Shown piece by piece: positions 14,184 through 56,459 of a stretch of 64,000 nt of DNA. The notes below the pieces were generated by a model. It saw only the letters and a list, made by a program, of their open reading frames with translations, searched no databases and was not told where the DNA came from. Position numbers and translations under genes: made by a program. Location: assembly GCA_001660395.1 (NCBI GenBank), contig LXWE01000001.1, forward strand, positions 806,001-870,000, in the 5' to 3' direction. The stretch comes from Alteromonadaceae bacterium XY-R5 (GTDB lineage: Bacteria; Pseudomonadota; Gammaproteobacteria; Enterobacterales; Alteromonadaceae). The stretch's first letter is position 1. Every line of letters begins with the position of its first letter.

Positions 14184-17100
14184 ATGTTAAAAAATATTCG
14201 CTTACACCTGCATCAGGACGAAGAACAACAAACTCAACTTGAGCAACAACTTGCCCAACATATCCTGGTGACCCACAAACAGAATATCAACGCATTTCAA
14301 CGCAATATTCCTTCTCTAGCGGGCTTAGTCAAACAACCTAATCTACAAAATTACTCGTTATTCTGTAATAAATTTGGCGAGTACAATATTGTCGATTATG
14401 GCTTAGGGCGCACTTTTTACGGCTTCCATCCACACACGGAAATTCGGGCGCAGGTTGCTAATTTCAGGCAGCATAGCGGCAAAGTGAGCATGCTCAATGG
14501 TGCGAATATAATTCCTCAAACCATTGAAACAGAAGAAACGCTAAAACTCAGAAACTTGCCGGCCTATCAGTCGCATATAAAACATGCCCCATTACCACAG
14601 ACTATTGATTGTTTAGTCATGCTAGGTTGTGGCCTGGCACAGCAAATAGAAGAACTGCTGCTAAATCATACAATCAAGAATCTCATTGTGTATGAACCTG
14701 AGCTTCAGTATTTTCAGTGTTCCGTTTTGGTTGGGCCATGGCAGCACATCTTTACACTCGCCCAAACCAAAGGCACCGCCGTCTTTTTACAGATACAAAA
14801 AGATGGTCGAGACATCATTTCCGACATGCGAGAGTTAGAGCAACATACTGGCATTAATAGCTTCTATCTCTATAAGCATTACAACCATCCGGTGTTTGAT
14901 TCACTTTACGAAGACTTACTAAATCGAAACTGGACGGACATTGCGCAGCACGGATTTAGTTTTAAAAACGAGCAGCATTACACCCAATATGTGCCCACAT
15001 GGACCCACCCGGTTAATGTGACGCAATTAAACGACGTATCGTGTGAAACCCCGCTGTTTCAACGAAATCTCGAGGCATTCAAACGCTACTTTCCTAAAAT
15101 ATACAACGATTACAAAGACTATCGCCCTAAACACTGGTTACCTGTAGCGACTGAGGCAGGCGAAGTCTCTCTGATTAAGCAAAGTAACTTGATCAGCTGG
15201 TACAGCGATTCACCAAAGTCTGATTGTGAATACAACTTTGACAACTTTAATGAACAGCCGAATAAAGACGGGCTGGTCCTCGGTTACAAAGGCAATAAGC
15301 TTGCGCACTACCTGCATTATCAGTTTGTAAAAGAAACCGAAGAATTATTGCAGCAAGCCGAGGATGAAATAGGTGCCCTGCCAGAAAAAGTCGCATCCAT
15401 TATTATGTTTGGACTGGGTGTCGGTTATCAGCTTGAAAAATTGCTGGCCGAGCATGAAGTTGAAAAACTCTTCATCTGTGAACCGAATCAGGATTTCTTC
15501 TACGCCTCTCTGTTTGCCATTGATTGGCATAGCATTTTAACCAAAGTAGATGAGTCGGAAGCGCGCATTTACCTGAATATCGGCGATGATGGCAGCCATT
15601 TATTCCGCGATTTACTTAGCCAGTTCCACTCCATTGGCCCCTATATTCTGAACAATACCTACTTCTACCAAAGCTACTACAACGCTTCCCTAAACAGTGC
15701 CATCGCACAACTGCGAGAACAATTGCAGGTAGTGATTTCGATGGGGGAATACTTTGATCATGCTTATTACGGTATCGAACACACCAAAGCAGTGCTTGAT
15801 CGGGGCACGCCTGTATTACGTAAGAATCCGTCTAAGCTACTGAGTTATGACGATAAAGAAGTTCCGGTGTTTATTGTTGGCAATGGTCCTTCGCTGGATT
15901 TATCCATTGAAGCCATCAAAGAATGGCAAGAACGGGCGATTGTCATCAGTTGTGGTACCGCGCTGCAGGCGTTACACAGAAACGGTATTACACCTGATTT
16001 CCACGCTGAAATAGAACAAAACCGCAGCACATTCGACTGGGCGTACCTAGTAGAGGACTTAGACTACTTAAAACAAATTACGCTGATATCCTGTAACGGC
16101 ATTCACCCTGATACCTGTGATTTGTATAAAGATGTATTAGTCGCCTTTAAAGAAGGGGAATCCTCAACTGTATCAGCCCTAAATGTACTTGGGGAAGACA
16201 AATACGAAACGCTGAAACACGCCTTCCCTACTGTCAGTAACTTCGTCACCGATCTCATCTCTACGTTAGGCTTTAATAATATTTACTTAATGGGTGTGGA
16301 TCTCGGCTTTATCGACGTGAAGCATCACCACTCAAAGTCGTCTGGTTATTATCAGCAAGATGGCAGTGAAACCTACAACTATGCAGAAAGAAACAACACA
16401 TCGCTCATCGTCCCGGGCAACTTCCGCCCGACGGTAAATACCAAACACGAGTTTAAAATTTCACGTCAGATCATCGAACAGGTTACCTATAAACGCCCCA
16501 AATCACAGACCTTTTATAACTGCAGTGATGGTGCAAAAATCATGGGGACAAATCCCCTTAATATCAGCGACCTACTGATCGTAACGAACGCTGAAAACAA
16601 ACATCACGCGCTAACAAACCTGAAAGATACGGTCTTCTCCCCCCAACTGACTAAAGGCTTTATCACAAAATTTGAAGATAAATTTTCAGATAATGTTCTG
16701 TTAAACGAACTCACTTCATTCAGAACATTGTTAGAGATAGAGATTGAAACACACAGCGATATTGAGTACATCATCAATAAACAAAAAGAGATGATGTTTG
16801 CTTCCTACAAATATGGAAAATCACTCTTATTTTATTATTTGTATGGTACGGCCAACTACGCGAATGCTTTGCTAACAAAACTTTCCAGCTCAAATATCGA
16901 AATAGTGGATAAAGCCATTACGCTCTGGCGCACCCTCATTGAAAAAATAATCAAAGAACTAAACAGAGATTACGAGAGATTTGATACATCTACGCACAAT
17001 AATGCGAAACGAGAACAAATGGTGCTATCAAATCAGTGTCAGGGTGAAACCATCACGATTTATTCTAGCTGCAAGGTATTTATCACCTCGTGCTTCTGGT

Positions 17101-17663
17101 TATCTGACATTGCCTACCAAGGTAAGATAATTTTTAAAGAGGGAAATTTAGCTCAACTGGAACCTTCGGAATACTGTGTCATTTATTACCCTGAAAAATC
17201 CAAAGAGCAAAGTCAGGAAATATTAACAAATGTCACTCGAAGTAAATCTGGAATAATAGTGACTTCTTATACAGATTTGGATGACTCACTGATCATCCCT
17301 GAGTCAATGCAAGCCAATGACGACGCTGTCGTAAACGAATTCAAACTGGCAAACGCTGCAATTAAGGCGGCGCTGAATGAGCATCATGACAGTAAACTTT
17401 TATTCAAAACCATATCAAAGAGTGTGTTTGATATTCCCGAAATTCAAACTTTGTCTCTAGAGGCAGAGGATGCGATCGACCATGTCAATTACCTAACCTT
17501 TACCAATAAAGGAATCATACCAAGAACGTTATTAAAATCAGGTATACGAGGTGGTTACGTTCAGAATTTATCCAGTAAAGCCGTACTTAAAATCATTGAT
17601 AAAAAAACCTATTTATTCCACAAAAATGACTTTAATGAATTTAAAAAACTCTATCTAAAATAG
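14184..17663 (+). CDS. maf: Maf-type motility-associated glycosyltransferase (DUF115), extra-long
   Basis: 1159 aa. The DUF115/MAF_flag10 core begins with VPVFIVGNGPSLD near residue 560, continues with VISCGTALQAL and includes NIYLMGVDLGF near residue 697. Maf proteins transfer pseudaminic or legionaminic acid from the CMP-sugar to Ser/Thr of flagellin in the cytoplasm. Upstream of the core lie two similar Rossmann-like segments. Each has a glycine-rich strand, an E-x-LL helix and an EP strand end: MLGCGLAQQIEELL..YEPE near 146 and MFGLGVGYQLEKLL..CEPN near 406. This suggests a duplicated N-terminal domain. The C-terminal 400 residues are AT-rich and not recognised. The ribosome-binding site is weak. 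It has a sigma-54 promoter and converges with the sugar operon, with only 3 nt between stop codons. Confidence 0.9.
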   Translation: MLKNIRLHLHQDEEQQTQLEQQLAQHILVTHKQNINAFQRNIPSLAGLVKQPNLQNYSLFCNKFGEYNIVDYGLGRTFYGFHPHTEIRAQVANFRQHSGKVSMLNGANIIPQTIETEETLKLRNLPAYQSHIKHAPLPQTIDCLVMLGCGLAQQIEELLLNHTIKNLIVYEPELQYFQCSVLVGPWQHIFTLAQTKGTAVFLQIQKDGRDIISDMRELEQHTGINSFYLYKHYNHPVFDSLYEDLLNRNWTDIAQHGFSFKNEQHYTQYVPTWTHPVNVTQLNDVSCETPLFQRNLEAFKRYFPKIYNDYKDYRPKHWLPVATEAGEVSLIKQSNLISWYSDSPKSDCEYNFDNFNEQPNKDGLVLGYKGNKLAHYLHYQFVKETEELLQQAEDEIGALPEKVASIIMFGLGVGYQLEKLLAEHEVEKLFICEPNQDFFYASLFAIDWHSILTKVDESEARIYLNIGDDGSHLFRDLLSQFHSIGPYILNNTYFYQSYYNASLNSAIAQLREQLQVVISMGEYFDHAYYGIEHTKAVLDRGTPVLRKNPSKLLSYDDKEVPVFIVGNGPSLDLSIEAIKEWQERAIVISCGTALQALHRNGITPDFHAEIEQNRSTFDWAYLVEDLDYLKQITLISCNGIHPDTCDLYKDVLVAFKEGESSTVSALNVLGEDKYETLKHAFPTVSNFVTDLISTLGFNNIYLMGVDLGFIDVKHHHSKSSGYYQQDGSETYNYAERNNTSLIVPGNFRPTVNTKHEFKISRQIIEQVTYKRPKSQTFYNCSDGAKIMGTNPLNISDLLIVTNAENKHHALTNLKDTVFSPQLTKGFITKFEDKFSDNVLLNELTSFRTLLEIEIETHSDIEYIINKQKEMMFASYKYGKSLLFYYLYGTANYANALLTKLSSSNIEIVDKAITLWRTLIEKIIKELNRDYERFDTSTHNNAKREQMVLSNQCQGETITIYSSCKVFITSCFWLSDIAYQGKIIFKEGNLAQLEPSEYCVIYYPEKSKEQSQEILTNVTRSKSGIIVTSYTDLDDSLIIPESMQANDDAVVNEFKLANAAIKAALNEHHDSKLLFKTISKSVFDIPEIQTLSLEAEDAIDHVNYLTFTNKGIIPRTLLKSGIRGGYVQNLSSKAVLKIIDKKTYLFHKNDFNEFKKLYLK

Positions 17664-25507: not shown

Positions 25508-25515
25508 TATCTATC

Positions 25516-27020: not shown

Positions 27021-27031
27021 GATGCCTCCTT

Positions 27032-29031: not shown

Positions 29032-29048
29032 ATACTTCCCCTTAAAAA

Positions 29049-41204: not shown

Positions 41205-42266
41205 TTACTTTGCGAATTCGCGCCAGCTTATCACCTTAGCCTCGTACAAGACTTTGTTTATACTTTCACTGACCGCTTTCTCGTGGGCGCCTTCAATGCA
41301 ATTGACAATAATATCTGGTTGATCCTGCGCTACCGCTTCAAGGCCTTTTATCGGAATATTACGAAGAAAACCTTGATTGTCAGGATGCGAAATTAAAAAG
41401 CACTCAATCTGTATCCCTTGCCTTTGCAACAATAAACAAACTATCTCCGATACCTCTCGGATACCAAATATAGCGATGCGCTGATCGGCATTGATGAGCC
41501 CATCAATAGCCAATTCCCCCTCGATTGACGCAAGTAGCAAACGCTTTAATTGCGATGCCGTGCTCATTGAAGAGGCCAACCTCTGCTCAAGAGATGAGCC
41601 ATATGTGGTAACGCCTAAGGTTCGGTCAATAAACTCATCTTGAAGTAAAATATTAGCGCGATTTTGACTATCACTACTGATACCTAGCTTCGAAAAAATT
41701 GCTATGACCCGCTCGGTGAAAACACCTTGAAATTGTTGTATCGCACGCTTCATAAAATACATATCAGCGGCTATATTCAGGCATTCATTAAAGGGGCCTA
41801 TGCTCTCAAAAAGCGCTCTGCGACAAAAAAAACCAGGATGAACGGGTTTAAACGCCTGAGGGTTGGCATGATAGGCAATGCTCTGATGACGCAATTTTGT
41901 GCTCTCATCATCCCAAACGATCGTGCCACTATAAAAATCGATATCATCCGTTAACTGGGCAATCACATCTTCAATTACCTGCGCATCATGAAGCTCATCA
42001 TCGGAATTTAAAAAGTAAATAAATTCACCAGATGCCAAGGCAACTCCCTTGTTAAACGCATGATAAATCCCTCTATCCTTTGAAGATACGATTTGAGCAA
42101 TATGAGGAAACTCTGCTGCAACTTTCAGTGTTTGGTCACTCGAACGACCATCAACAATAATATGTTCGATATCGGCAATCGCGGTTTGCCTTTCTACACT
42201 GGCTAAACAAGCTCGTAAGGTCTGCGAGCTATTATAGGTTGCTGTAATTATGGATATTTTCTTCAT
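41205..42266 (-). CDS. GT2-family glycosyltransferase with C-terminal Rossmann-like module
   Basis: 353 aa. The GT2 domain has ISIITATYNSSQTL (4-17), IIVDGRSSDQT (36-46), GIYHAFNKG and SDDE at 88-91, with the WcaA-like phage-tail pattern of O-antigen transferases. The last 95 residues, from QRIAIFGIREVSEIVCLLL near 262, form a small Gly-rich module similar in plan to the end of the transferase at 17667. That part may bind a nucleotide or a partner. The gene overlaps the Stealth gene by 4 nt and ends the third gene block. Confidence 0.88.
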   Translation of the reverse strand: MKKISIITATYNSSQTLRACLASVERQTAIADIEHIIVDGRSSDQTLKVAAEFPHIAQIVSSKDRGIYHAFNKGVALASGEFIYFLNSDDELHDAQVIEDVIAQLTDDIDFYSGTIVWDDESTKLRHQSIAYHANPQAFKPVHPGFFCRRALFESIGPFNECLNIAADMYFMKRAIQQFQGVFTERVIAIFSKLGISSDSQNRANILLQDEFIDRTLGVTTYGSSLEQRLASSMSTASQLKRLLLASIEGELAIDGLINADQRIAIFGIREVSEIVCLLLQRQGIQIECFLISHPDNQGFLRNIPIKGLEAVAQDQPDIIVNCIEGAHEKAVSESINKVLYEAKVISWREFAK

Positions 42267-43339
42267 TTCACAGGCCTTTTTTCAAAACTACTGACATCTG
42301 GGTAAACAGTGGCTAGCGCTTGATTGATGGCAAATTTAGAATGCTCAAAATCAGCAGGAGACATATCTTCTTTGGTGTACCTTCCTTTAAAGATTGCATC
42401 ATTGATACACAGCATTCTGTAGACCTTGTTGTGTATGTCACTTGCCACTCGTTCAGCATCGGCTTTTGTTCTCACTTCGACATACTTTCTTTGCTTTTGA
42501 TACTGACGATAGTCTCCCGGCGAAAATTTTCCGGAAACCAATTGCCAGTATCGGAATAAATATTGACTGACATCCTGATTATCTCTGAAACGTGAATAAG
42601 TGGTTTTATTCAGTGCATCAGGTTCCCGTTTCCAGACCTCTTCAAGGGTCGACTTCAATAATGGCTGTGGATGATGATTAAGCACAAATCCTGTATGCCC
42701 TTTCCACTTCATCAACAACAGGTTTTGCAACAAGGAGGCAACCCCATACTTTGGCGAAAACCAGCCCTTTAGATTACCAGTTAAGACTCGGGACTTTGCC
42801 AATTCTGGTGCGACATGACGATTAAAATGCTTATTAATAATATCGATATTGTTAAGCACAATATGAGAAATGGTTCCATCATGAGTGACGTCCAGAAGCC
42901 CATAGTCAACGGGCTTTTGTTCTTTAAAAAACTCTGTAGGCTTTACTTTGTCGAGGATAAAACAATCGTCATTAAAGTAGACAAATTTCTCACTAAGCCC
43001 CTCAATTCTATGCAAATTGAGTTCTATCGGATGTGAGCTAAAAACAGGCAATGCGTCAGACGGAAGATAATCCTGATGGTTAACAATAACTAACTTTGGG
43101 TGCTCAGTATTGAGCCAGGATGGTAAATGGCCCCAGGTAATGAAATATATCTTATTCACCCAAGAACACGACTCTTCAAATGCTCTGAATAAATACTGCA
43201 GGTTATCCCACTCGGTAAAGCGGGATTGAGTATTGAGTAATGCATTACCCGGTGAATATTGTTGATACTCCGCTTGCCAACGCGGATCTCCTCCATCCAC
43301 CCATGGCAAAACAAAATCTATTTTATCGTTATTATCCAA
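42263..43339 (-). CDS. Stealth-family sugar-phosphate transferase
   Basis: 358 aa. The Stealth CR1 motif is at 7-21 (IDFVLPWVDGGDPRW). CR2 follows with KIYFITWGHLPSWLN, EKFVYFNDDCFIL (118-129), then the later conserved regions with FSPKYGVASL and a C-terminal basic tail. Stealth enzymes, such as meningococcal group A capsule polymerase and GlcNAc-phosphotransferase, form sugar-phosphate diesters from nucleotide sugars. This suggests a phosphodiester link in the flagellar glycan. It lies 18 nt from the membrane transferase gene upstream and is coupled to the GT2 gene. To the eye, AT content rises from here leftwards. Confidence 0.92.
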   Translation of the reverse strand: MDNNDKIDFVLPWVDGGDPRWQAEYQQYSPGNALLNTQSRFTEWDNLQYLFRAFEESCSWVNKIYFITWGHLPSWLNTEHPKLVIVNHQDYLPSDALPVFSSHPIELNLHRIEGLSEKFVYFNDDCFILDKVKPTEFFKEQKPVDYGLLDVTHDGTISHIVLNNIDIINKHFNRHVAPELAKSRVLTGNLKGWFSPKYGVASLLQNLLLMKWKGHTGFVLNHHPQPLLKSTLEEVWKREPDALNKTTYSRFRDNQDVSQYLFRYWQLVSGKFSPGDYRQYQKQRKYVEVRTKADAERVASDIHNKVYRMLCINDAIFKGRYTKEDMSPADFEHSKFAINQALATVYPDVSSFEKRPVK

Positions 43340-43357
43340 TACTAAATCTCTGCACTA

Positions 43358-45127
43358 TTAGCTATCCATGATCTGGTGCTGCTGCAACATACGGTGCAGA
43401 AAACTGCACACATAAGTACGTTTTTGCTGATTCAATGACGCCGCCTTTTGCCCTTCCGCCAGCAGATTCACCTGATTAAACAAACGATCTACCCAGTACA
43501 AATCCCCCTCAAATAACACGCCGAAATTGGCAGGCGTATTGCCTTTTAAGGTGGCGGAATGAAACAGGTAAGCAAAAGCTCGCTCATCGTTCGCCAGCGA
43601 GCTACCCATGCACTGGTAATCGTACTCAATGCCGAGTAAATCGAAAAAAGTCGGGAATAAATCGAAGTGACAGGAATGGGTGATCTGTTTACTGGCTAAA
43701 TTCGGATGTGTCAGCATAAAGGGCACCTGCATCTGCGGCAGGATCACCGAATTGCTGTGAAAGCTGTAACCAAATTCGCCAAAGGATTCGCCGTGATCAC
43801 CGGTAAACACCAACAAGGTATTAGATAAATCCACCCTCTCGCCCAAGCGATTAAGAAATTCATCCAGAATGTAGTCCACTTCTTCTGCGGCATTTAAATA
43901 CGTGGCTTTGCCGTCTTTACCTTTGTGTCGGTTAAACCTGACTTTATCTACCACCTCATAAGGCATATGAGTTTGGTCATTGATAATGTGCAAGAAGAAC
44001 GGCTGCTTAGCGGCTACTTCCGCCACCTTATCGACCATATTCCACAAACGATAATCAGCTTTGAGGCCATTATCCGGTAAATCATGGGTGCCCCACACAT
44101 GATCAAAGCCAATTCGGCTTAACAGCTTGTGATAGTCATACAAATTGATGTCAGCCGAGTCCAGAAACATAGTGGTATAGCCTTGCTTCTGTAACTGCTT
44201 GATATGTTTGGGCTCGAGGCCAGGATAAAGGCTGTCGTCTTTGTTGTAGGGATTATTGGAATAGGCACCGGTATACATCTGGTTAGTCGATACCGTGGTG
44301 TTGGGGCACAAACAAAAATGCTGCTGACTTTTCCAACTTCTCTGGTTAAATCGCTTGGCTAAGCGGGAACGAATGCCGTCTTTGTCATCGTCACTCAGGT
44401 AATTACCTAACGACTCCATGGTAATCAAAATAATGTTGGCACCGGCACAGCGACCAAAATCCTGCGACGCTTGTTGAGGTGCCGATACTGCATTCACAAA
44501 CGCCTGATGTTCAGGCTCAAGCACCAGCGATTCATCGCCCTGAAATCTGTCATCCGCCAACACTTTGCCCAGCAGGCTAGCTGAGGTGAAAAAGCCATGT
44601 TGTAAAGGCATGATCCAGCTGACGAGCTTTAATCCTGCCACCACAACAAAGGGGATAATCAGCAGCCACTGTAGCGAAATAGGCACCGACAAGGCATGAG
44701 CAACGCTGGGAAGTCCGAAGAGTAGGCCAGCCCAACATAACGGGATAGCTGCGCCCCACGGATATTTGTTTAACAGGCTAAACAGGTGCGGAATGCCTTT
44801 ACTTAGTCCGCGACTGCCCGTCACGCACCAGGCTAAGGTTTGACGGTTCACTTCTATGCGAAACTGCACAAATAGCAGGGCATCAAACCACAATGCGAGG
44901 CCGTAAATAAACAATCCTGCTGCGAATATGTAGCTCAGAAGAGGTTGATACAGTGTTAGCCCAGTAAACAGCAAGCTTACCAACATCAGATAACACAAAT
45001 CATCTAAATTCAGGCTTTGCCGCAGCGCACCACGTTTGGCGCGCAAGGCTTTGTTCAAGCGCCAGATAATAGCGGCACCAAACCAAAACAGGCCTGCTTG
45101 CAGGGTGAATGTGAGTAAGGTTTGCAT
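43358..45127 (-). CDS. Membrane sulfatase-fold transferase (LTA synthase / phosphoethanolamine transferase-like)
   Basis: 589 aa. Four or five transmembrane helices lie in residues 1-185. A periplasmic alkaline-phosphatase-fold domain follows, with NIILITMESLGN (231-242), the probable nucleophile in CPNTTVSTNQM (Thr277 or Thr278), and FTGDHGESFGEFG near 450 plus HSNSV as metal ligands. These are the signatures of LTA synthase, OpgB and EptA enzymes, which move phosphoglycerol or phosphoethanolamine onto outer-surface acceptors. It starts 2 nt after the LuxC-like gene, so it belongs to that operon. As a periplasmic enzyme it cannot modify cytoplasmic flagellin, so its acceptor may be lipid, hook or rod protein. 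Confidence 0.87.
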   Translation of the reverse strand: MQTLLTFTLQAGLFWFGAAIIWRLNKALRAKRGALRQSLNLDDLCYLMLVSLLFTGLTLYQPLLSYIFAAGLFIYGLALWFDALLFVQFRIEVNRQTLAWCVTGSRGLSKGIPHLFSLLNKYPWGAAIPLCWAGLLFGLPSVAHALSVPISLQWLLIIPFVVVAGLKLVSWIMPLQHGFFTSASLLGKVLADDRFQGDESLVLEPEHQAFVNAVSAPQQASQDFGRCAGANIILITMESLGNYLSDDDKDGIRSRLAKRFNQRSWKSQQHFCLCPNTTVSTNQMYTGAYSNNPYNKDDSLYPGLEPKHIKQLQKQGYTTMFLDSADINLYDYHKLLSRIGFDHVWGTHDLPDNGLKADYRLWNMVDKVAEVAAKQPFFLHIINDQTHMPYEVVDKVRFNRHKGKDGKATYLNAAEEVDYILDEFLNRLGERVDLSNTLLVFTGDHGESFGEFGYSFHSNSVILPQMQVPFMLTHPNLASKQITHSCHFDLFPTFFDLLGIEYDYQCMGSSLANDERAFAYLFHSATLKGNTPANFGVLFEGDLYWVDRLFNQVNLLAEGQKAASLNQQKRTYVCSFLHRMLQQHQIMDS

Positions 45128-45129
45128 GG

Positions 45130-46332
45130 TTAAATCACTACCAACCGAGACAATTGCTCAAACAGGTTATAGCCATCCCATTGGGGCGAAAAATCCAGTG
45201 CCTGTCCAACGGGCACAACTCTGTCTATTCCTGTTATCGACGGCTGGCGCAATAACTTAACAACGGCAGCTTTCTCGATACCCCAGACACTCAAGGTTTG
45301 TAACTTAGGCGATACATGCCCGGCCAGCGCATCGAGGCTATCCAACTGACAACACAACAACACCTGCTGGCCGTTATGCCATGCAAGCAGCGGCTCGGTT
45401 TGGCCCTTTGCCGATAACACTGACAAATGGCCAAATTGCTGGTAATCGCTGATCCAGCCAGAAGCCTTGGCCTGTTGTGCCAGCACTAGCTGCTCGTTTC
45501 GTTGATAAATAGGTGATTCACCCGCTTGGCTTAACTCACCCACGGCAGCAAATAATGCAGCTTGCTGCGCTGCGCTACCCAGCCAAAAAACCTGTCTGGG
45601 CGATGAACAAGCTTGCTGGGCGTAGGGCTGAATATCCCGCCACAGTAACTCAGCTAATTTAGGCACTTCTTCGGCCTGCAACACATCACCATTAATCAAA
45701 CAAGCGGAATGACGATCAGCAAAGCTGATATCGCGACAACGGGGTTTGCTTGGCAATGCACGAATGGCGTTCACGCTATCATCGCCGCCCCAGATCACTC
45801 GCGCGTCGGCCTGCTGGCTGATCCACTCGCCAATCTCCGCCTCGCGCGGATACTGGCAAAACAAGTTGGTTTCAGCGATCAGCGCAAATTCAGGCTCGGC
45901 CAACAAAGCATTTAACTGGGCAAATAATGCGACTTGTAACGGGGTTAAGTTGGATGCCACCCGTATGAGATTTCGATTGCCCAGCAACAGTGAGCAGACC
46001 CAGCTGTAAATAAACATGGTATCTACATTCGCTGGCGTGTAATGCACCACCAGGCCCACAGCTTTGCGCAGGAAATTACCATTAGCTTCTTGCTGCAAGG
46101 GCGCAATATACTGTTGCAAATTGCCCTGACGTAACCAAAAGCCCAAAGCTACTAGCTCGCTGTGTTTACGGCACTCAGCATCTTTCAACAAGCGGCCAGA
46201 CAGCACCTGTAAAAACGCTAATACCCGCTCATCTAATAAGGGTAAGGATGACGCAGAAAATAATGCTGCCTTTTGTAATGCAATCTGGCTTGGTGAAAAA
46301 GACGTCATTGGCGCTAACAGGATCACACTCAT
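45130..46332 (-). CDS. LuxC-like acyl-CoA/acyl-ACP reductase
   Basis: The 400-aa protein is of the LuxC family in the aldehyde dehydrogenase superfamily. It has the nucleotide-binding WGGDDSVNAIRA near 181-192 and the catalytic Cys242 in YAQQACSSPRQVF. The N-terminal HYTPANVDTMFIYSWVCSLLLGN region is conserved in LuxC. LuxC reduces an activated acyl group to aldehyde; in luminous bacteria it works with LuxD and LuxE. There is no LuxA, LuxB or LuxD here, so light production is not the role. It overlaps the LuxE-like gene by 4 nt. It likely makes an acyl aldehyde for attachment to, or conversion on, a flagellar sugar. Confidence 0.88.
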   Translation of the reverse strand: MSVILLAPMTSFSPSQIALQKAALFSASSLPLLDERVLAFLQVLSGRLLKDAECRKHSELVALGFWLRQGNLQQYIAPLQQEANGNFLRKAVGLVVHYTPANVDTMFIYSWVCSLLLGNRNLIRVASNLTPLQVALFAQLNALLAEPEFALIAETNLFCQYPREAEIGEWISQQADARVIWGGDDSVNAIRALPSKPRCRDISFADRHSACLINGDVLQAEEVPKLAELLWRDIQPYAQQACSSPRQVFWLGSAAQQAALFAAVGELSQAGESPIYQRNEQLVLAQQAKASGWISDYQQFGHLSVLSAKGQTEPLLAWHNGQQVLLCCQLDSLDALAGHVSPKLQTLSVWGIEKAAVVKLLRQPSITGIDRVVPVGQALDFSPQWDGYNLFEQLSRLVVI

Positions 46333-47426
46333 AGGCTGGCTCCTGTATCACTACAACCACGAATTTCGGTTTTGGGTAAACGCCCATCGACGGCGAAATA
46401 GCGCCCTTTGCGCCCGCAGCCGCAATCGTCTTCGCCTAAAATTCGACCGAGATCTTCAGTCAGTAAACTAAAACCGGGATAACTGCTGGGCAGCAGAGAA
46501 AGCACCTGAAACAAGCCTTGCTCGCCCTGTGCGCTTTCGGATAAATCATAGGGATTACGCACTATCACATCGGCAAAGAGCGGCGCGTGTAAATGGCCCT
46601 GTTCGCATTCCACAAACACCGAGCCCACCTGTTCGGCCATGCCATAGAAATTGTGTACTTTGGCAATGCCTGTGGCCTTGGCTAAGCGAGCTTTAAAAGT
46701 CGCATTATCGACTTGCTTATCCACCAGCTTTTTCCAACCGCCGCTGTGTACCAACACGCCTTGAGACAGGTTTAGGCTGTTGCCCTGCTGCTCTAATGCT
46801 TCCACCAAGGCTTGCCAAATCATAAAGGTAAAGCCAAACACCAACATCGGCTGACCTGCATATTTCTCGGCAAAGGCCTGAATCGCAGACAAATCCAGCT
46901 GCATATTTTCATCCAGCGCATAGGTATGGTCGCGACCAAAAAACGCCATGCCCTGAATACCGGCGCCACGGGCGCTGAACAAGGCTTTGTCTTTGAGTAC
47001 TGCAGGCGAGTCGATGATCAGCATGGGTAAACGCTGAGTGCCAATAAAGGCCTGCATGATTTTGACTAAGGTTTTCGACTGACGGGCACTGGTATCTCGG
47101 TCTAAAAAGACTTCCGCTGGCGTTTGGCCTGTAGTGCCGGAGGAACGTAACACTTTGAAAATCTGCTCATCGGGCACAGATTTCAAACTGAATAGCTTAA
47201 ACAAGCGCACCGCTAAATAAGACACATCCGCCAGCGACTGCCAGTTATCGGCATCTACTTCAGCAAACATGTTGTGATACGCCTCGCTATTGGCCAGATG
47301 ATGCTGATGCAAACTACGTAGCAGCGGTAACAGTTGTTGTTGCTTGTCTGCCTGACGTAAACCAAACATCGGCTGTTCATATAAGGCTGCTAATTGTGCC
47401 TGATAGTCGGCAAGAAAATCAGTCAT
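46329..47426 (-). CDS. LuxE-like acyl-protein synthetase
   Basis: About 365 aa from the ATG at 47426, chosen because GGAGG stands 5 nt upstream. The adenylate-forming signature LRSSGTTGQTPAEVF starts near residue 93, followed by YGMAEQVGSVFVECEQGHLH and TEDLGRILGEDDCGCGRKGRYF, as in LuxE (CoA/protein ligase superfamily). LuxE activates a carboxylic acid as acyl-AMP and passes it to itself or to a partner. It overlaps the adenylating enzyme by 8 nt and LuxC by 4 nt. Two adenylating enzymes in one module suggests that one loads the acyl carrier protein and the other feeds LuxC (inference). Confidence 0.9.
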   Translation of the reverse strand: MTDFLADYQAQLAALYEQPMFGLRQADKQQQLLPLLRSLHQHHLANSEAYHNMFAEVDADNWQSLADVSYLAVRLFKLFSLKSVPDEQIFKVLRSSGTTGQTPAEVFLDRDTSARQSKTLVKIMQAFIGTQRLPMLIIDSPAVLKDKALFSARGAGIQGMAFFGRDHTYALDENMQLDLSAIQAFAEKYAGQPMLVFGFTFMIWQALVEALEQQGNSLNLSQGVLVHSGGWKKLVDKQVDNATFKARLAKATGIAKVHNFYGMAEQVGSVFVECEQGHLHAPLFADVIVRNPYDLSESAQGEQGLFQVLSLLPSSYPGFSLLTEDLGRILGEDDCGCGRKGRYFAVDGRLPKTEIRGCSDTGASL

Positions 47427-48810
47427 TTGCACCTCCGCTTGGGTTCTTAGCGAAGGCTATCAGGGCCGGATAATCTGTCTTGCCGTTAGCGGTTAATGGC
47501 AGACTCTCCAGTTCCAGCAGGCGCACTGTCGAAGGGTGAATATTCAGTGTTTGAGCAACCGCCAGAGAAGTAAGTGCATGCTCACCGGTGACACACACCA
47601 GCAATTGATTATCCCAGCCCGTACAAGCAAGGCTACTCGCCTGCGCAGCCAATACACTTTCAGACGCATCTAAACCGATACGCTGGCCGTGTATTTTGAG
47701 CATACGTTTAATGCGGCCACTGATATGAAAATCACCCTCGTCATCAAACCAGGCCAAATCGCCGGTTTCCAGTTCAGCCAATGGATCAAACTCGCTTAAA
47801 TCGTTACGACAGCTGGCATAGCCTAACATCACGTTTGGGCCTGAATAGATCAGCTGCCCCACCTGATTGGGCTGGATTATGGGCTGCTTGAAATCGTCGA
47901 TAAGCGTCAAATTTCCACCGGGAATGGCTGTGCCTATGGCATCGGGTTTATGTTTTACCTTATCAGGCAATAACCAGGCCATACGGGCAGTGGCTTCGGT
48001 TTGACCGTACATCACATAAAACGCCTTGCCCTGCCCTTCGGCATACTCGGCCAGCATAGTGACGCGTTTGGCATCCAGCTTGCCACCCGCCTGAGTGAAA
48101 TAACGCAACTCCGGCAAGGTTTTACGGGTAAAGCCCAGGCGCAACAGCATTTCATAACTGTGAGGCACACCCGCAAAACTGTGAATGGGCAAAGATTCCA
48201 GCAACTGCCAGTATTCCCGCTGCATCACGGAATAAGGGGTAAACACCAAGGTCGCACCGCAAAGCAAATGGCTGTTCACCACCGACAAACCATAGGAATA
48301 AAACATCGGCAGGTTGCACAGGGTATTGTCTCTGGCCTGAATCGGCAGGAAGTCACAGATACTGGCCGCATTGGCCTGTAAATTAGTGAAACTCAACGCC
48401 ACTTGTTTGGCGATTCCGGTACTGCCAGAGGTTGACAGTAAGATGGCCAAATCTGGCGCTAACTCGCTGGCGGGCTTTGCATAGTCAAAGCTCTGCTCGC
48501 GCCCTGCCCCGACAATACCATCTAACTGATACAGCTCTGCCAACTGCTTCAACTGTGCGTCGCTGATAGCAGGATCCAGCAACAAAGCCGCATGATTACC
48601 CCGCAGTACCGCCAGGTAATGAATTAAACCCTCTAAGGTATTTTCCAGCAACAGAGCCAGCAATTGCCTTGATGGTTTAGCATCAGTCCAATTCGCCGCT
48701 AGCCTATCCGCCGCTTGCGCCAGTTGCGCATAGGTCATGCACTGCTCACCGTCGATAACGGCTATGGCATCACCAAACTGTTCAAGCTGTTGGTAAAAAG
48801 GCTGCTGCAT
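47419..48810 (-). CDS. AMP-dependent acyl/amino acid adenylating enzyme
   Basis: 463 aa. The ANL-superfamily motifs are present: P-loop LLSTSGSTGIAKQ (124-136), FYVMYGQTEATARMAW, GDLAWFDDEGDFHISGRIKRMLKI, and the catalytic Lys in LTANGKTDYPAL near the C-terminus. Length and layout resemble acyl-ACP synthetases and small acyl-CoA ligases. It probably activates a carboxylic acid and loads the acyl carrier protein encoded two genes upstream. Substrate specificity is not readable. It follows the FabG-like gene by 17 nt. Confidence 0.9.
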   Translation of the reverse strand: MQQPFYQQLEQFGDAIAVIDGEQCMTYAQLAQAADRLAANWTDAKPSRQLLALLLENTLEGLIHYLAVLRGNHAALLLDPAISDAQLKQLAELYQLDGIVGAGREQSFDYAKPASELAPDLAILLSTSGSTGIAKQVALSFTNLQANAASICDFLPIQARDNTLCNLPMFYSYGLSVVNSHLLCGATLVFTPYSVMQREYWQLLESLPIHSFAGVPHSYEMLLRLGFTRKTLPELRYFTQAGGKLDAKRVTMLAEYAEGQGKAFYVMYGQTEATARMAWLLPDKVKHKPDAIGTAIPGGNLTLIDDFKQPIIQPNQVGQLIYSGPNVMLGYASCRNDLSEFDPLAELETGDLAWFDDEGDFHISGRIKRMLKIHGQRIGLDASESVLAAQASSLACTGWDNQLLVCVTGEHALTSLAVAQTLNIHPSTVRLLELESLPLTANGKTDYPALIAFAKNPSGGAND

Positions 48811-48827
48811 AGGCTTAGTGCCGCCCC

Positions 48828-49550
48828 TTACAGGCGCAGGCCGCCATCCACACCGATGATTTGTCCGGTGATAAAACTGGCTTGGGGTGAGACTAAAAAC
48901 GCGATGAGTTGCGCCACATCTTCGGGCTGGCCTAATCGACCAAGGGCGGTTTTGGCTTGGATATCTGCGCGCTGCTGCTGATTATAATTGGCCACCAAAG
49001 GCGTATCGATAAAGCCCGGCGCCACTGCATTGACTCGAATGTTGAGTTTGCCCAGTTCCTGAGCCAAGGATCGGGTTAAGCCTTCCAGCGCCGATTTACT
49101 TGCGGCATAAGCGGATTGCCCCGCACTACCCTGTGTGGATACAACGGAATCTAAATTAACGATGCTACCGCCAGTGCGCGCCATTAAACGGCTGGCTAAC
49201 TGGCAATGTTGGTAAGTCGCGAAGGTATTGATCGCAAACAGGCTTCGCAGCGCCGCCATGCTGGTCATAGCAATGGCACTGTCTTGCATCACACCGGCAC
49301 AATTGACCAACGCAGTGATACCGCCATTTTGCTGCAACTGGCGAAACGCGGCTTTTACGGCGTCTTCATCGGTTGCATCATACACCAATACCTGCGCCAA
49401 CTCGCCTAGCTCATCCGCCAGAGCATTCAGGGCTTCAGCGTTACGGCCAGCCAGCCACACCCGCGCACCTTGCTTTGCCAATACGCGCGCGGTTGCCTGA
49501 CCTATGCCACTGCTGGCACCGGTAATTAAGATGGAAGTGGTGTCTGTCAT
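48828..49550 (-). CDS. FabG-like short-chain dehydrogenase/reductase
   Basis: About 240 aa. The cofactor motif is [12 protein letters not shown] (9-20), with NCAG (83-86) in place of NNAG, catalytic Ser135, and Tyr148/Lys152 in [22 protein letters not shown] ends it. It is a classical NADPH-dependent 3-oxoacyl-ACP reductase type. The ATG overlaps the stop of the acyl carrier protein gene by one base (TAATG), so carrier and reductase are translationally linked. The obvious role is reduction of a 3-ketoacyl group, for example to 3-hydroxybutyryl, on that carrier. Confidence 0.92.
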
Positions 49551-49789
49551 TAACACTGGATATCGTATTTAGCCAAAATCTCTTTCGCCTTGGCTACTGA
49601 GCTCATGTCTATTATATCGTCCGTATCCAGCATAATATTGAACTGATTTTCCAGTTCAGCAATGAGGATCATATGGGCAGTCGAATCCCACTGGAGAATG
49701 GTGTTATAGGTTAGCTCATCGCTTACTTGTGCTAAATCAATCCCAAGGGCGGTAGCAAAGCTTTGTTTTAATTGTGCTTCTGCGCTCAT
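49550..49789 (-). CDS. Acyl carrier protein
   Basis: 79 aa from the ATG at 49789; a GTG at 49798 is an alternative. It is acidic and helical, with the phosphopantetheine attachment serine (Ser36) in LQWDSTAHM, where most ACPs have DSL. The flanking [18 protein letters not shown] and the C-terminal [16 protein letters not shown] fit the four-helix ACP fold. It heads the acyl module (ACP, reductase, adenylating enzyme, LuxE, LuxC), so the carrier is dedicated and not the fatty-acid-synthesis AcpP. The acyl chain it carries may be put on pseudaminic acid or another amino sugar (inference). Confidence 0.93.
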
Positions 49790-49929: not shown

Positions 49930-50505
49930 TTAGCGAGATAAAAAGCGTTTAAAGGCGTGCGTTGCGGCCTCGTAATCTTGCAGTGACAAACTGATATCCA
50001 CCAGCCCATCGGCTTCGCCCGTTACTCGATAACCCAGCTTTTGGTTGTAGTTTAATGCCGCCTGATTATCCGCTTTGACCACTGCCTTCAATTCAGGCGT
50101 GTTTAGCTGGGTAAAACAAAAGTCGTTGAGTACCAATGTAGGGGCAAAGGCCAGAATATTCTGGCGATAGCGGGGTTCACCTATATACAACCCCGGCATA
50201 ATCGCCTGACTTTGCCATAATGGCAGATCATCTAAGCTACGAATATTCGCCGCGCCGATGGGGTGGTCTTTGTAATGAATCACAAAATGCTGTTGCTGAT
50301 TGTCAGTTTCGATACGCTTAAACCAGGCATGTTGTTGCTGCTCGGAAATCAGCTCCTGAGACAACATAAAGCGGCTGATATCAGGATCGTTTCGCCACTG
50401 ACGCACGCGTTCCAAATCGTCCCAATCCAAGGGCTTTAGCGTCACCTGATAACCCCTTAGGCCCTGCTCGCAGGCCTGAAGATAAGCGTTTTCTGCATCA
50501 GTCAT
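49930..50505 (-). CDS. pseH: PseH: UDP-4-amino-4,6-dideoxy-N-acetyl-beta-L-altrosamine N-acetyltransferase
   Basis: About 191 aa from the ATG at 50505, which has GGAAG 8 nt upstream and gives a short 8-nt overlap with pseG. It is a GNAT-fold protein: the N-terminal LKPLDWDDLERVRQWRNDPDISRFML is the usual PseH start, and HPIGAANIRSLDD and LGYRVTGEADG follow. PseH acetylates the C4 amine of the altrosamine sugar, step three of pseudaminic acid synthesis. An alternative acyl donor (the acyl carrier protein next door) is conceivable. It is the last gene of the pse block. Confidence 0.9.
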   Translation of the reverse strand: MTDAENAYLQACEQGLRGYQVTLKPLDWDDLERVRQWRNDPDISRFMLSQELISEQQQHAWFKRIETDNQQQHFVIHYKDHPIGAANIRSLDDLPLWQSQAIMPGLYIGEPRYRQNILAFAPTLVLNDFCFTQLNTPELKAVVKADNQAALNYNQKLGYRVTGEADGLVDISLSLQDYEAATHAFKRFLSR

Positions 50506-51541
50506 ATTTACGACTTCCATTAAGGGCTCTCAGACTGTCACGAATAATATTATTGGTGCCATCCAGATTACGCTGGGTTAAACAGACTTGATGCATCATG
50601 GTTAACGCTTCGTCGTCATGCCAAAGGCCAATTACCCGCTGTGCGAGGGCGTTAAAATCCGCGCTATCACGTACATCGACAAAATCACTACTGCCCAGCA
50701 GGCTGGCCTGCTCAGTAGCATTGAGCTGATTATCCGCCACCACCACCAACAATGACGGCGTGGCGGTGACACAAAGTTCAAACTGGCTGGAGCCTGCTGC
50801 AGAGACCACCAGTCGGCTATAGGCGAATAGCTCGGCGATTTGCTGGGCATCGTGAATATGCTGAATCGCCATTGGCGCAGCCGCAATCCAGTCTTTTAGC
50901 TCGGCTAATTTGGGATACGCTGCACCTGTGATAATACGTATTGGTGCATCAAAACCAGTCTCGGCGAGTGCTTGGGCTAACGGCAAAGTCATATTCATCG
51001 GGTCGCTGCCGCCCATCACAATAGTCAGGCCGTGGCGCTGTTCCATCGGGATAGTCTTTTGCTGCACGAATTCCTGACGCAGCACCCGATAATCACTGCC
51101 AACAGACAAACCTGCCTTTGGCGCAGTATTTTCGTAACCTAAGGAGGCTGCATTCTCGCTGCCATTGATGATCACTGTGGCGTAAAGCTGCCCATGCTCA
51201 TTATTATCATCAAAGGTAATCAGCGGCACATCGGCATCTGCCAGCTGGCGGCGATAATCAGAGGAAAACTGATAGCCGTCTAACACCAATGCATCGGCAC
51301 TTAACTGGGTATATAACTCCGCCAGCCATTGAGGTTCGTCTTGTATGGAAATGCTGTCTGGGATCAGGGTAATTTTACCCTGCCAGTCGTGACGGGCGCG
51401 GCAAATGGGCAATGATTCAGCCCGAATAATGAAGTGAGGCTCGATATGCCATTGCTCGCAGCCCTGTGCCAACGCCTGGCTGCGCATCAAATGGCCGATG
51501 CCCATTTGCGCACTGCCATCACAGCGAAAAAACCAGATCAT
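50498..51541 (-). CDS. pseG: PseG: UDP-2,4-diacetamido-2,4,6-trideoxy-beta-L-altropyranose hydrolase
   Basis: 347 aa. The N-terminus WFFRCDGSAQMGIGHLMRS (3-21) contains the R-x-D and GxGH motifs of PseG. A GT-B fold follows with VMGGSDPMNMTLPLA, AGSSQFELCVTATPSLLVVVADNQ and the C-terminal helix. PseG removes UDP from the diacetamido sugar by a glycosyltransferase-like mechanism. Its ATG shares one base with the pseI stop (TAATG). The length is typical. Confidence 0.95.
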   Translation of the reverse strand: MIWFFRCDGSAQMGIGHLMRSQALAQGCEQWHIEPHFIIRAESLPICRARHDWQGKITLIPDSISIQDEPQWLAELYTQLSADALVLDGYQFSSDYRRQLADADVPLITFDDNNEHGQLYATVIINGSENAASLGYENTAPKAGLSVGSDYRVLRQEFVQQKTIPMEQRHGLTIVMGGSDPMNMTLPLAQALAETGFDAPIRIITGAAYPKLAELKDWIAAAPMAIQHIHDAQQIAELFAYSRLVVSAAGSSQFELCVTATPSLLVVVADNQLNATEQASLLGSSDFVDVRDSADFNALAQRVIGLWHDDEALTMMHQVCLTQRNLDGTNNIIRDSLRALNGSRKYD

Positions 51542-52629
51542 TAGCTATCCTGTTGCAGCAAATGCCAGTCCAGCGGTGTGCCTTTCGGCAGGTCCTTTGT
51601 CACCACCTGACCTAACACCACATCCCAATGCTTGGGGGCTAAGCCAAACGCGGGGCGCACAATTTTGAGGTTCTCACGACTTAACACCTCACCGGCTTTA
51701 ATGTCTTTGCTGACATAAATAGAACGGCGGTATTGCTTGGATTTTTCTTCGGCGGCACTGCCACCGTAGGTTACCTGTCCCATGGCCTGCCAGGCGCGCT
51801 CGGTTTCAGTCACCAGGGCGCTTAGCTCCTGTGGCTCCAATGAAAATGCCGCATCCACGCCACCGGCGTTACGATCCAGCACAAAGTGTTTTTCAATTAC
51901 AGTCGCGCCTAAGGCAATAGCAGCAACGGACACACCGACGCCAGCGGTATGATCCGATAAGCCCACCTGTACGCCAAAGGCCTGCGCCATATGCGGAATG
52001 GTGACTAAATTGGTGTTGGTTGGCTGGGCCGGATAAGTGCTGGTGCATTTGAGTAGGATAATCTCGCTGCAGCCATTTGCCTTAGCACAGGCCACCGCCT
52101 GCTCAATTTCACTTAAACTGGCCATGCCGGTCGACATAATCAATGGCTTGCCCTTACTCGCCGCTTTGGCAATCAGGGGTAAATCCGTCAGTTCAAACGA
52201 AGCAATTTTAAAACAAGGCACATCCAGACTGTCGAGAAAATCCACTGCTGCTTCATCAAAGGGCGAGCTAAAAGCTTCCATTCCCAATGACCTGGCTTTG
52301 GCGAAGAGTTTTGCGTGCCATTCGTAAGGCGTTGCGGCTTTTTGATATAGCGCATGCAGCTTTTCACCTCGCCACAGGCTGTCATCTTCTTCTATCACAA
52401 AGCCTTTGGCATTCACATCCAAAGTCATGCTATCGGCAGTATAGGTTTGCAGTTTGATGGCATCCGCCCCCGCTGCTGCCGCAGCTTCCACCATTTTTTC
52501 CGCCAGAGCATAATTCTGACTATGGTTACCGCTTAATTCAGCAATAATAAAGGGCTTATGACCAAAACCGACATCTCGCTGACCAATACGAATAGCGCCA
52601 GATTTATCTTTAGGCGAACTAATGAACAC
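51541..52629 (-). CDS. pseI: PseI: pseudaminic acid synthase
   Basis: About 362 aa from a GTG at 52629, with GAGG upstream; a TTG at 52665 would overlap the previous gene by 47 nt. The NeuB-family barrel begins with FIIAELSGNHSQNYALAEKMV and includes CFKIASFELTDLPLIA, IMSTGMASLSEIEQA, VGLSDHTAG and VIEKHFVLDR. The C-terminal SAF (antifreeze-like) domain has AGEVLSRENLKIVRP. It condenses the sugar with phosphoenolpyruvate to give the nine-carbon pseudaminic acid. The gene follows the GT9-like gene and overlaps it slightly. Confidence 0.94.
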   Translation of the reverse strand: MFISSPKDKSGAIRIGQRDVGFGHKPFIIAELSGNHSQNYALAEKMVEAAAAAGADAIKLQTYTADSMTLDVNAKGFVIEEDDSLWRGEKLHALYQKAATPYEWHAKLFAKARSLGMEAFSSPFDEAAVDFLDSLDVPCFKIASFELTDLPLIAKAASKGKPLIMSTGMASLSEIEQAVACAKANGCSEIILLKCTSTYPAQPTNTNLVTIPHMAQAFGVQVGLSDHTAGVGVSVAAIALGATVIEKHFVLDRNAGGVDAAFSLEPQELSALVTETERAWQAMGQVTYGGSAAEEKSKQYRRSIYVSKDIKAGEVLSRENLKIVRPAFGLAPKHWDVVLGQVVTKDLPKGTPLDWHLLQQDS

Positions 52630-53611
52630 AGGGCTCAGCCTCAAAAATAGATTCAATACTTTCAACTAAATCTGCAGCAGGTACAGGCTCTTCACTCATA
52701 TCCGTGGCGTATTCAGGCATTAATGTGCGAGGATCTACCTGACCACTGATGACAAGAGAAGGACACCCCACAGACGTCGCCAGCCACTGTGGTGCAGACG
52801 GCACGGTCACGAGTAAATGGCTGGCTTTCAGCTTAGCTAACGTATCGCGCATTGAAATACTGCCATCAAAGCCCGTCCAGACATAAAAGCCTTTTTCTTC
52901 AAGCAGACGTTTCAGCTCTTCACCATAGGGATAACCACGTTCAGCGGTGCGGGCATCACAAGCAAGGGCGATGATTTTCTGCTTTTTACCCTGCTTTTTC
53001 AGTTGATGGTCAACATTGACATCAATGGTCATATCCATCTCTATGGCACCAAAACCGCAGCAATGACGTAAATAGAATTCAGGGTAACCACCTTCTGGTG
53101 TCACACCCGCTTCCCACCAGGGCATATGCCAGCGGCTCATGCCAAACCAACTACTGTGCATGTAGGTGTCAGGGTTGTTGACGTACTCGGGTTTAAGAGT
53201 CTGCGCCTGAAACTCGTCGATCAATTGCTGCACACTTTTACTGATAAAATTACCCTGAACAGGCTCACCCGCGTCTTTTAAAAAACGTGCGAGGAAACAA
53301 GGCATAAACCAAGTGTCCAGGTTCACAATCTGGGTGTAAGCCTCTCCAATAATGGTTTCAGCCAACCCCAGAAAGGCTTCCATCGCCGCCAGAATATTTT
53401 CCGGCCACTGACCTTTCTCAAGTACAATTTGCTTCACATTCGGAGCAGCGAGTTTGATCACCTCACTGCCTGCCGCATACGTCAGAAAATGAATCTCTGC
53501 ATCGGGAAATTTTTGCTGAAAATGGCGTAACGCAGACACACCAATACAGGTCACATCACCTAAGCCCAACATACGGATCAACAGGATTTTTTCGGGTTTC
53601 GCTTCAGACAA
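52619..53611 (-). CDS. GT9-like (heptosyltransferase-fold) glycosyltransferase
   Basis: 330 aa. It opens with EKILLIRMLGLGDVTCIGVSALRHF, the ADP-heptose:LPS heptosyltransferase start, and has a C-terminal domain with KIIALACDARTAERGYPYGEEL and the donor-site region LLVTVPSAPQWLATSVGCPSLVISG. These are GT9-family features. It sits between pseF and pseI, separated from pseF by 3 nt. It might transfer heptose or another sugar, or be a pseudaminic acid-linked transferase. The true donor is unknown. Related genes are seen inside nonulosonic acid clusters of other bacteria. Confidence 0.82.
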   Translation of the reverse strand: MSEAKPEKILLIRMLGLGDVTCIGVSALRHFQQKFPDAEIHFLTYAAGSEVIKLAAPNVKQIVLEKGQWPENILAAMEAFLGLAETIIGEAYTQIVNLDTWFMPCFLARFLKDAGEPVQGNFISKSVQQLIDEFQAQTLKPEYVNNPDTYMHSSWFGMSRWHMPWWEAGVTPEGGYPEFYLRHCCGFGAIEMDMTIDVNVDHQLKKQGKKQKIIALACDARTAERGYPYGEELKRLLEEKGFYVWTGFDGSISMRDTLAKLKASHLLVTVPSAPQWLATSVGCPSLVISGQVDPRTLMPEYATDMSEEPVPAADLVESIESIFEAEPCVH

Positions 53612-53614
53612 AAT

Positions 53615-54304
53615 TTACCCCTGAATATAGGCTTTATACATTAATTCGGCCCGCTGCCAGTCTTCCAGGGTATCAATATCCTGAACCAGATGACGCGGCA
53701 ATACGATAGCTAGGCTATCGGCAGAAAACATTTTTTTGCCAGCCAAATAATCGGCCGAGCGGCCCCAATAAAACTGACCGGCATCATGATAGGCTTCTTC
53801 TAAATCTTGCGAACGTTTACCTATGTCGGCAGGAAACATTGGCGCTACCCCCGCATCCGTCATTTTGAGCGAACGTTGAATGGGGAAGGCAAAAGATGTA
53901 ACTGAAAACGCAAAGGCTTTATGCGGCAGTTGCTGCAATTGCAACAGGCCTTGCTGTAAAGATTCAGCCTGTAAAAACGGCGCAGTAGCGTAAATACAGC
54001 AGGTAAATTCCGGCATCTCACCTTCGGCAGCATAATGCTCGATGGCATGGCGGGTGACAGGGGTTGTCCCGGTCATATCATCCGCCAACGTGTCGGGGCG
54101 AAGAAAAGGTACCTCAGCGCCGAACGTGAGTGCTACTTCTGCAATCTCTTCGCTATCGGTAGACACAATAATCTTATCGAACACCTCGGCCTTTTTCGCC
54201 GCTTCGATGGAATACGCGATGAGAGGCTTGCCACAAAACTCACGAATGTTCTTTTTGGGGATGCGTTTACTGCCACCTCGGGCGGGGATCACGGCGAGTT
54301 TCAT
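53615..54304 (-). CDS. pseF: PseF: CMP-pseudaminic acid synthetase
   Basis: About 229 aa from the ATG at 54304; a GTG at 54313 would give an overlap with pseC. The CMP-NeuAc synthetase motif is AVIPARGGSKRIPKKNI (from residue 4). IVSTDSEEIAEVA, AEVPFLRPDTLADD and the later DAGQFYWGRS are typical of PseF. It activates pseudaminic acid with CTP, giving the donor used by the Maf transferase. It overlaps or abuts pseC and precedes the GT9-like gene by 3 nt. Confidence 0.95.
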   Translation of the reverse strand: MKLAVIPARGGSKRIPKKNIREFCGKPLIAYSIEAAKKAEVFDKIIVSTDSEEIAEVALTFGAEVPFLRPDTLADDMTGTTPVTRHAIEHYAAEGEMPEFTCCIYATAPFLQAESLQQGLLQLQQLPHKAFAFSVTSFAFPIQRSLKMTDAGVAPMFPADIGKRSQDLEEAYHDAGQFYWGRSADYLAGKKMFSADSLAIVLPRHLVQDIDTLEDWQRAELMYKAYIQG

Positions 54305-54309
54305 ACCAG

Positions 54310-56459
<2,150 letters not shown>

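Follow-up and report, generated by a model that had tools for sequence, protein, structure and literature searches.

A LuxC/LuxE-family gene module beside a variant PseH in an Alteromonadaceae flagellin-glycosylation island, a candidate acyl-ACP supply for pseudaminic acid N-acylation

Flagellar islands described from 2015-2016 onwards contain genes for an acyl carrier protein (ACP), a reductase, an adenylating enzyme, LuxE and LuxC, to which no function has been assigned. In the Group II islands of Aeromonas they are listed as orf1-3, luxE and luxC and placed in fatty-acid/fatty-aldehyde metabolism (PMC7874193). Enterobacteriaceae flagellin islands carry Acp, FabG, CaiC, LuxE and LuxC (PMC4875605), and an insert in Dickeya zeae EC1 combines the same families with two transketolases and a maltose O-acetyltransferase-type protein beside the ACP (PMC4522980). 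The published functional idea is a 'liposugar component' (PMC4875605 and PMC7874193); a survey paper on pseudaminic acid (Pse) in Clostridium leaves ACP and LuxE unmentioned. Here we describe such a five-gene module in a 64,000-nucleotide stretch of Alteromonadaceae bacterium XY-R5, hereafter the window (GCA_001660395.1, contig LXWE01000001.1, positions 806,001 to 870,000). Since the gene set already appears in the Aeromonas, Enterobacteriaceae and Dickeya papers, the observation itself is not new; the new parts are the module's recurrence across phyla, the distinct PseH subfamily encoded beside it, and the replacement of PseH by a NeuD/PglD-type enzyme at seven loci.

The original prediction, made from the letters of the window, had pointed to similar genes near pse genes in Aeromonas and Shewanella flagellar islands. 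The Aeromonas parallel was borne out, as the Group II islands hold the five genes in order beside pseH (PMC7874193). The Shewanella parallel was not, in the single case examined: the sfm operon of S. oneidensis has a different gene set, encoding NeuB, a thiamine pyrophosphate (TPP) enzyme, a FabG-like reductase, a methyltransferase and an ATP-grasp protein, with no Lux genes.

The five-gene module and its catalytic residues

The module is one minus-strand operon (45130-49789) in the order ACP, FabG-like short-chain dehydrogenase (SDR), ligase, LuxE, LuxC, lying directly 3' of pseH (Table 1). The reading of five coupled genes with overlaps of 1, 8 and 4 nt was confirmed in its open reading frames (ORFs), families and overlaps, with a single 17-nt gap if ATG starts are assumed. 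The findings below on gene content, catalytic residues, folds, the PseH loop and co-occurrence come from sequences and predicted folds. The SDR matches adh_short_C2 at 218 bits, its top curated model being 3-oxoacyl-ACP reductase; the ligase matches PF00501 at 161 bits, LuxE PF04443 at 146 bits and LuxC PF05893 at 97 bits, and the ACP matches the PP-binding profile PF00550 at 23 bits, marginally above the cut-off of 20.8. These scores uphold all five earlier family calls, except that the 'ketoacyl' in the predicted reductase's name is, judged by profile, a family-level name for the SDR.

Against the curated luminescence equivalogs, LuxC and LuxE score 32/750 and 47/550 bits, both below the cut-offs. 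Because of this distance we call them LuxC/LuxE-family proteins and not luminescence enzymes. The predicted lack of LuxA, LuxB and LuxD holds for the module, which contains neither luxAB nor luxD. For the genome it is less firm, since the LuxD search gave no match but is weak, no positive control having scored in it, and two bacterial-luciferase-family proteins are encoded on other contigs. No ketosynthase was found among the ORFs of the module or in the Pfam scan of its proteins.

The putative catalytic residues are well kept. Cys242 of LuxC (ACSSP) and Cys360 of LuxE (RGCSDT) are present in >90% of 36-37 homologues, and the former is invariant in a wider homologue set too. Cys360, near the C-terminus, falls on the KGCS cysteine when aligned to the LuxE chain of the Photobacterium LuxC-LuxE complex (PDB 7xc6). 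The AlphaFold model of LuxC, with a predicted local distance difference test score (pLDDT) of 91.7, has the LuxC chain 7xc6_A as its top PDB fold match (E 2.9e-18), although a PDB sequence search with LuxC gave no match. In the ACP, the phosphopantetheine serine within WDS(T)AHM, again kept in >90%, and a further motif are conserved across 33 homologues. The ligase has the C-terminal PLTANGK lysine motif. Since it lacks the Asp at the alpha-amino-binding position when aligned to gramicidin synthase, a plain carboxylic acid seems a likelier substrate than an amino acid.

The variant PseH and a proposed role for the module

The pyrophosphate of coenzyme A (CoA) is bound in H. pylori PseH by the backbone of Gly103 (PMC4363471). 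The module-adjacent PseH of the window scores 77 bits against the TIGR03585 cut-off of 93.1, below canonical PseH, and has RQNILAF in place of the glycine loop; by our interpretation of the alignment to C. jejuni PseH, the loop column corresponds to Gly103. The second loop glycine is kept in 41/41 PseH without an adjacent module and in 0/80 beside one, a contrast drawn between related sequences of one or few origins, in which the 41 were selected as canonical (above the TIGR03585 cut-off, no module beside). Moreover, 67/80 module-linked PseH have Asn where a His/Tyr general acid is usual. PseH of the window type occurs in 34/148 Alteromonadaceae genomes, all 34 of them module-positive. The same division is seen within one Aeromonas-like genus, recognised solely by its match to a published island map, where the glycine is missing in 8/8 module-positive loci and kept in 5/5 module-negative ones. 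The model of the window PseH (pLDDT 97) has H. pylori PseH as its top PDB match and also resembles FdhC (PDB 5ktc). By sequence, then, the PseH beside the module is a distinct subfamily, which is new in the present analysis.

The TIGR03585 score alone was tried as a mark of the module and rejected. It is clean in the family (21 genomes above the cut-off, none with the module) but fails in the order, where two module-positive genomes have a PseH above the cut-off, beside the module in G385 and on another contig in G268. Because of these exceptions, the glycine column is the better mark.

On these grounds, and those of the following section, we think it most likely, with moderate confidence, that the module is a dedicated short-acyl-ACP supply for the PseH N-acylation step of pseudaminic acid biosynthesis, replacing acetyl-CoA. 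The adenylating enzyme would load a short carboxylic acid on the dedicated ACP, and the adjacent PseH-like GNAT, devoid of the CoA-pyrophosphate-loop glycine, would accept the acyl group from the ACP and attach it to UDP-4-amino-4,6-dideoxy-L-AltNAc at the 4-amino group, which becomes N7 of pseudaminic acid; PseG, PseI, PseF and Maf would then bring the acylated sugar to flagellin. Upstream of loading, LuxE may convert a carboxylate to an acyl-AMP and then to a Cys thioester, LuxC may reduce the LuxE-bound acyl group to the aldehyde, and a hydroxy-acid may then be formed by the SDR or, at loci that lack it, by a housekeeping reductase. We infer the ACP-bound acyl transfer, the order of the steps and the short hydroxy-acid from the residues and associations given here; a literature search on GNATs using acyl-ACP returned nothing useful.

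If the link to N-acylation is true, it might account for the 376 Da and 102 Da units of Aeromonas flagellin (see below), and the PseH loop would be a sequence mark predicting which bacteria carry non-acetyl pseudaminic acids, useful for reading surface-sugar chemistry from genomes.

Distribution, glycan masses and alternative readings

The nearest named relatives of the LuxE belong to Alteromonas and Aliiglaciecola (60-63% identity). Of the 148 genomes of the family, 36, the window's own included, encode a LuxE relative at 46-63% identity, and one more a distant one at 27%; others are found in other parts of the order and phylum, as well as in Clostridia, Bacillales, alpha- and betaproteobacteria, Gastranaerophilales, Spirochaetia and others. 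The gene order is repeated in >100 loci, so the module is more than chance. Among 137 close-LuxE loci, counted as loci and not as independent genomes since some genomes were fetched from two collections, 136 have LuxC close by, 135 the ligase, 127 the ACP and 107 the SDR. Distance correlations of 0.86 for LuxE-ligase and 0.82 for LuxE-LuxC are no proof of function; at 3 loci the ligase and LuxE form a single fused protein. As judged from sequence, the module keeps an almost constant composition from phylum to phylum, a finding also new in the present analysis.

Outside the phylum, recurring extra partners are a split transketolase, a type II thioesterase encoded between the ligase and LuxE genes, KS III-like (in some loci only) and FabZ-like genes and an IlvB-like TPP enzyme; several of these identities were assigned by eye, with Pfam support for the transketolase and a metallo-beta-lactamase fold. 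Some loci vary in other ways. LuxE-like domains lie inside proteins of 820-830 aa in L088, L089 and L097-L100, and genes that look phosphonate-pathway-like by eye follow luxC in L043, L048, L105, L108 and L111. An 82-aa ORF between pseH and the ligase in L235, ACP-like by size, was checked and is not an ACP.

PglD-type enzymes are known to acylate a related UDP-sugar at its 4-amino group. At 7 non-pse loci, a NeuD/PglD-type sugar N-acyltransferase adjoins the ACP, replacing PseH; several of these loci have a DegT aminotransferase and two a PglC-type sugar phosphate transferase. With either PseH or NeuD/PglD beside the ACP, the shared factor is an amino-sugar N-acyltransferase adjoining it. One genome, G045, splits the module: along with the PseH variant, its pse locus encodes a ligase of its own but no ACP, LuxE or LuxC; those three genes lie 60 kb off, beside a PglD-type gene. 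This suggests that loading by the ligase goes with transfer by PseH, and that LuxE-LuxC can act apart. A recurring protein of 240-260 aa (L133:3031-3792), read by eye as WecD-like, was dropped after Pfam and NCBIfam gave no match. It had been proposed at the outset that the module might join a short hydroxyacyl group or an aldehyde to an amino sugar by N-acylation or reductive amination. The loss of the PseH loop glycine, the co-occurrence and the NeuD/PglD swaps favour N-acylation, whereas reductive amination gained no specific support.

Published masses bear on the acyl group. Flagellin of A. piscicola AH-3 (Group II, module-bearing) bears a pseudaminic acid derivative of 376.14 Da, present by itself on lateral flagellin too, and in addition an unassigned unit of 102 Da; the glycan masses published for a module-bearing Aeromonas comprise the 376 Da sugar, hexoses, N-acetylhexosamine, phosphate, methyl and 102 Da, with no long chain. 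A. caviae Sch3 carries Pse5Ac7Ac, or Pse5Ac7Ac9Ac according to another paper. The calculated mass of Pse5Ac7R with R = C4H6O3 is 376.148, and C4H6O3 alone is 102.03. Speculatively, and doubtful beyond the arithmetic, the N-acyl group of the 376 Da sugar could be C4H6O3 (dihydroxybutyryl), which malate-type chemistry might provide if LuxE/LuxC gave a semialdehyde and the SDR dihydroxybutyrate. An extended version of the proposal is a general carrier-protein route for tailoring bacterial amino sugars, in which Lux-type acid reduction, optional transketolase extension and the SDR would build a short polyhydroxy-acid, to be loaded on the ACP and passed on by PseH- or PglD-type enzymes no longer using CoA. 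The module would have been exchanged across phyla, the surface sugars of many bacteria would bear unrecognised N-acyls, and the Aeromonas sugar would be Pse5Ac7(dihydroxybutyryl). To this wide version we assign a low probability.

Several points weigh against an acyl-ACP supply for PseH, besides the selection and relatedness of the PseH sequences compared. Bacillales PseH retain a neighbouring glycine in the loop, and PseH distances correlate better with those of PseI (0.79) than with those of LuxE (0.61). No recognised N-acyltransferase lies within six genes at 49/137 loci, mostly clostridial; clostridial modules at L132, L138, L143, L163 and L179 stand alone between opposite-strand genes, so that the product may serve another use there. 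The SDR was not found by tblastn in 10 related loci. A sugar of 403 Da in strain AH-1, module-negative as judged from the island published for it, is unexplained, and no nuclear magnetic resonance structure was found in the literature covering the 376 Da sugar. Finally, serial action of ligase, LuxE and LuxC giving an aldehyde is compatible with the data.

This last possibility is an alternative in its own right: ligase, ACP, LuxE and LuxC would act in series to make an aldehyde that is attached to a sugar or extended by a TPP enzyme of transketolase or E1 type, PseH having only drifted. Classical LuxE-LuxC chemistry does terminate in an aldehyde, split transketolase genes lie inside or close to the module at about 20 loci of other phyla, there directly 3' of an SDR (L133:4542-6315, L160, L170 and others), and likewise in Dickeya zeae EC1 (PMC4522980), and the window holds an E1-type TPP pair. 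However, most Alteromonad modules lack the transketolase, which may instead extend a semialdehyde prior to acyl-group formation, and the aldehyde route leaves the PseH loop change and the NeuD/PglD swaps beside the ACP unexplained. We regard it as unlikely.

Quite improbable is an N-acylation with 3-hydroxybutyryl-ACP, of the kind seen in known 3-hydroxybutyramido sugars, in which the SDR would play the part of FabG and reduce an acetoacetyl thioester. The SDR is FabG-like and the PseH model resembles a 3-hydroxybutanoyl GNAT (FdhC, PDB 5ktc), but LuxE and LuxC would have no role, the SDR is missing at 10 loci, and Pse5Ac7(3-hydroxybutyryl) is calculated at 360.15 vs the 376.14 reported. The liposugar view of the 2016 and 2021 papers (PMC4875605 and PMC7874193), in which common fatty acids are channelled into lipid or fatty aldehyde on the flagellar glycan, follows the gene names and the Lux parallel but appears very improbable for a module without a ketosynthase, with LuxC/LuxE far from the long-chain equivalogs and with no long chain in the glycan masses published for a module-bearing Aeromonas.

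The surrounding island and comparison with known systems

The gene order upstream of the module is pseB, pseC, pseF, a 330-aa gene, pseI, pseG and the PseH-like GNAT. Close to the pse genes are fliD, fliS, flaG and four flagellin genes, while a fifth flagellin gene and maf, the sole Maf found in the genome, lie at the opposite end. By family, the sulfatase-fold, Stealth and GT2 genes 3' of luxC would be glycan decoration genes.

Table 1. Positions of the module and associated genes in the window
Feature	Position	Strand	Basis
Dedicated ACP	49550..49789	-	ATG start (GTG ORF to 49798); PF00550
FabG-like short-chain dehydrogenase (SDR/ketoreductase)	48828..49550	-	PF13561/TIGR01830
Stand-alone AMP-forming acid:carrier ligase (nonribosomal peptide synthetase A-domain/acyl-CoA-ligase type)	47419..48810	-	PF00501; PLTANGK motif
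LuxE-family acyl-protein synthetase	46329..47426	-	PF04443; Cys360 (RGCSDT)
LuxC-family acyl reductase	45130..46332	-	PF05893; Cys242 (ACSSP)
PseH-like GNAT, altered CoA loop	49930..50520	-	TIGR03585 77 bits, cut-off 93.1
pseG	50498..51541	-	TIGR03590 205 bits
pseI	51541..52665	-	TIGR03586 501 bits
pseF, CMP-sugar synthetase	53615..54313	-	PF02348
pseC, aminotransferase	54310..55452	-	PF01041
pseB, dehydratase	55449..56447	-	PF02719
maf, flagellin nonulosonyltransferase	14184..17663	+	PF20157 389 bits, PF01973
Putative outer-glycan decoration genes directly 3' of luxC: sulfatase/LtaS-fold, Stealth, GT2	41205..45127	-	PF00884, PF11380, PF00535

The 330-aa protein between pseF and pseI (52619-53611) is weakly heptosyltransferase-like, has no Pfam match and is present in 38 related loci. 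Elsewhere in the glycan island lie the E1-type TPP pair (27973-29978; Transket_pyr/C, 352 aa, and E1_dh, 309 aa), with no E2/E3 among the scanned neighbouring genes, and two PhyH-type dioxygenases, an SDR and a TylF-type O-methyltransferase (24044-27050).

Known systems resemble parts of the locus. LpxD is an acyl-ACP-dependent UDP-sugar N-acyltransferase, though a hexapeptide enzyme of the lipid A pathway. The GNAT FdhC (PDB 5ktc) adds 3-hydroxybutanoyl to a sugar nucleotide but uses CoA. PseH of H. pylori (4RI1) and C. jejuni (4XPL) matches the module-linked PseH in GNAT fold and pathway position, whereas in the latter the CoA-loop glycine and the usual His/Tyr general acid are replaced. The luminescence LuxC-LuxE(-LuxD) systems share the LuxC/LuxE families, the catalytic cysteines and the ALDH/LuxC fold; the window module differs in having no adjacent LuxAB/LuxD, its own ACP and a second adenylating enzyme, and in scoring 32-47 bits. 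The Enterobacteriaceae islands and Dickeya zeae EC1 have gene families in common with the window module, but the Dickeya authors thought a flagellar role unlikely and reported no pse context (PMC4522980). Closest is the Aeromonas Group II island, with the five genes in identical order directly 3' of pseH, although its paper, in the accessible part, connects the genes neither with PseH nor with the 376 Da mass (PMC7874193). Directly 3' of luxC, that island has the Fgi-1 glycosyltransferase, whereas the window has the sulfatase-fold gene there and the GT2 gene three genes on.

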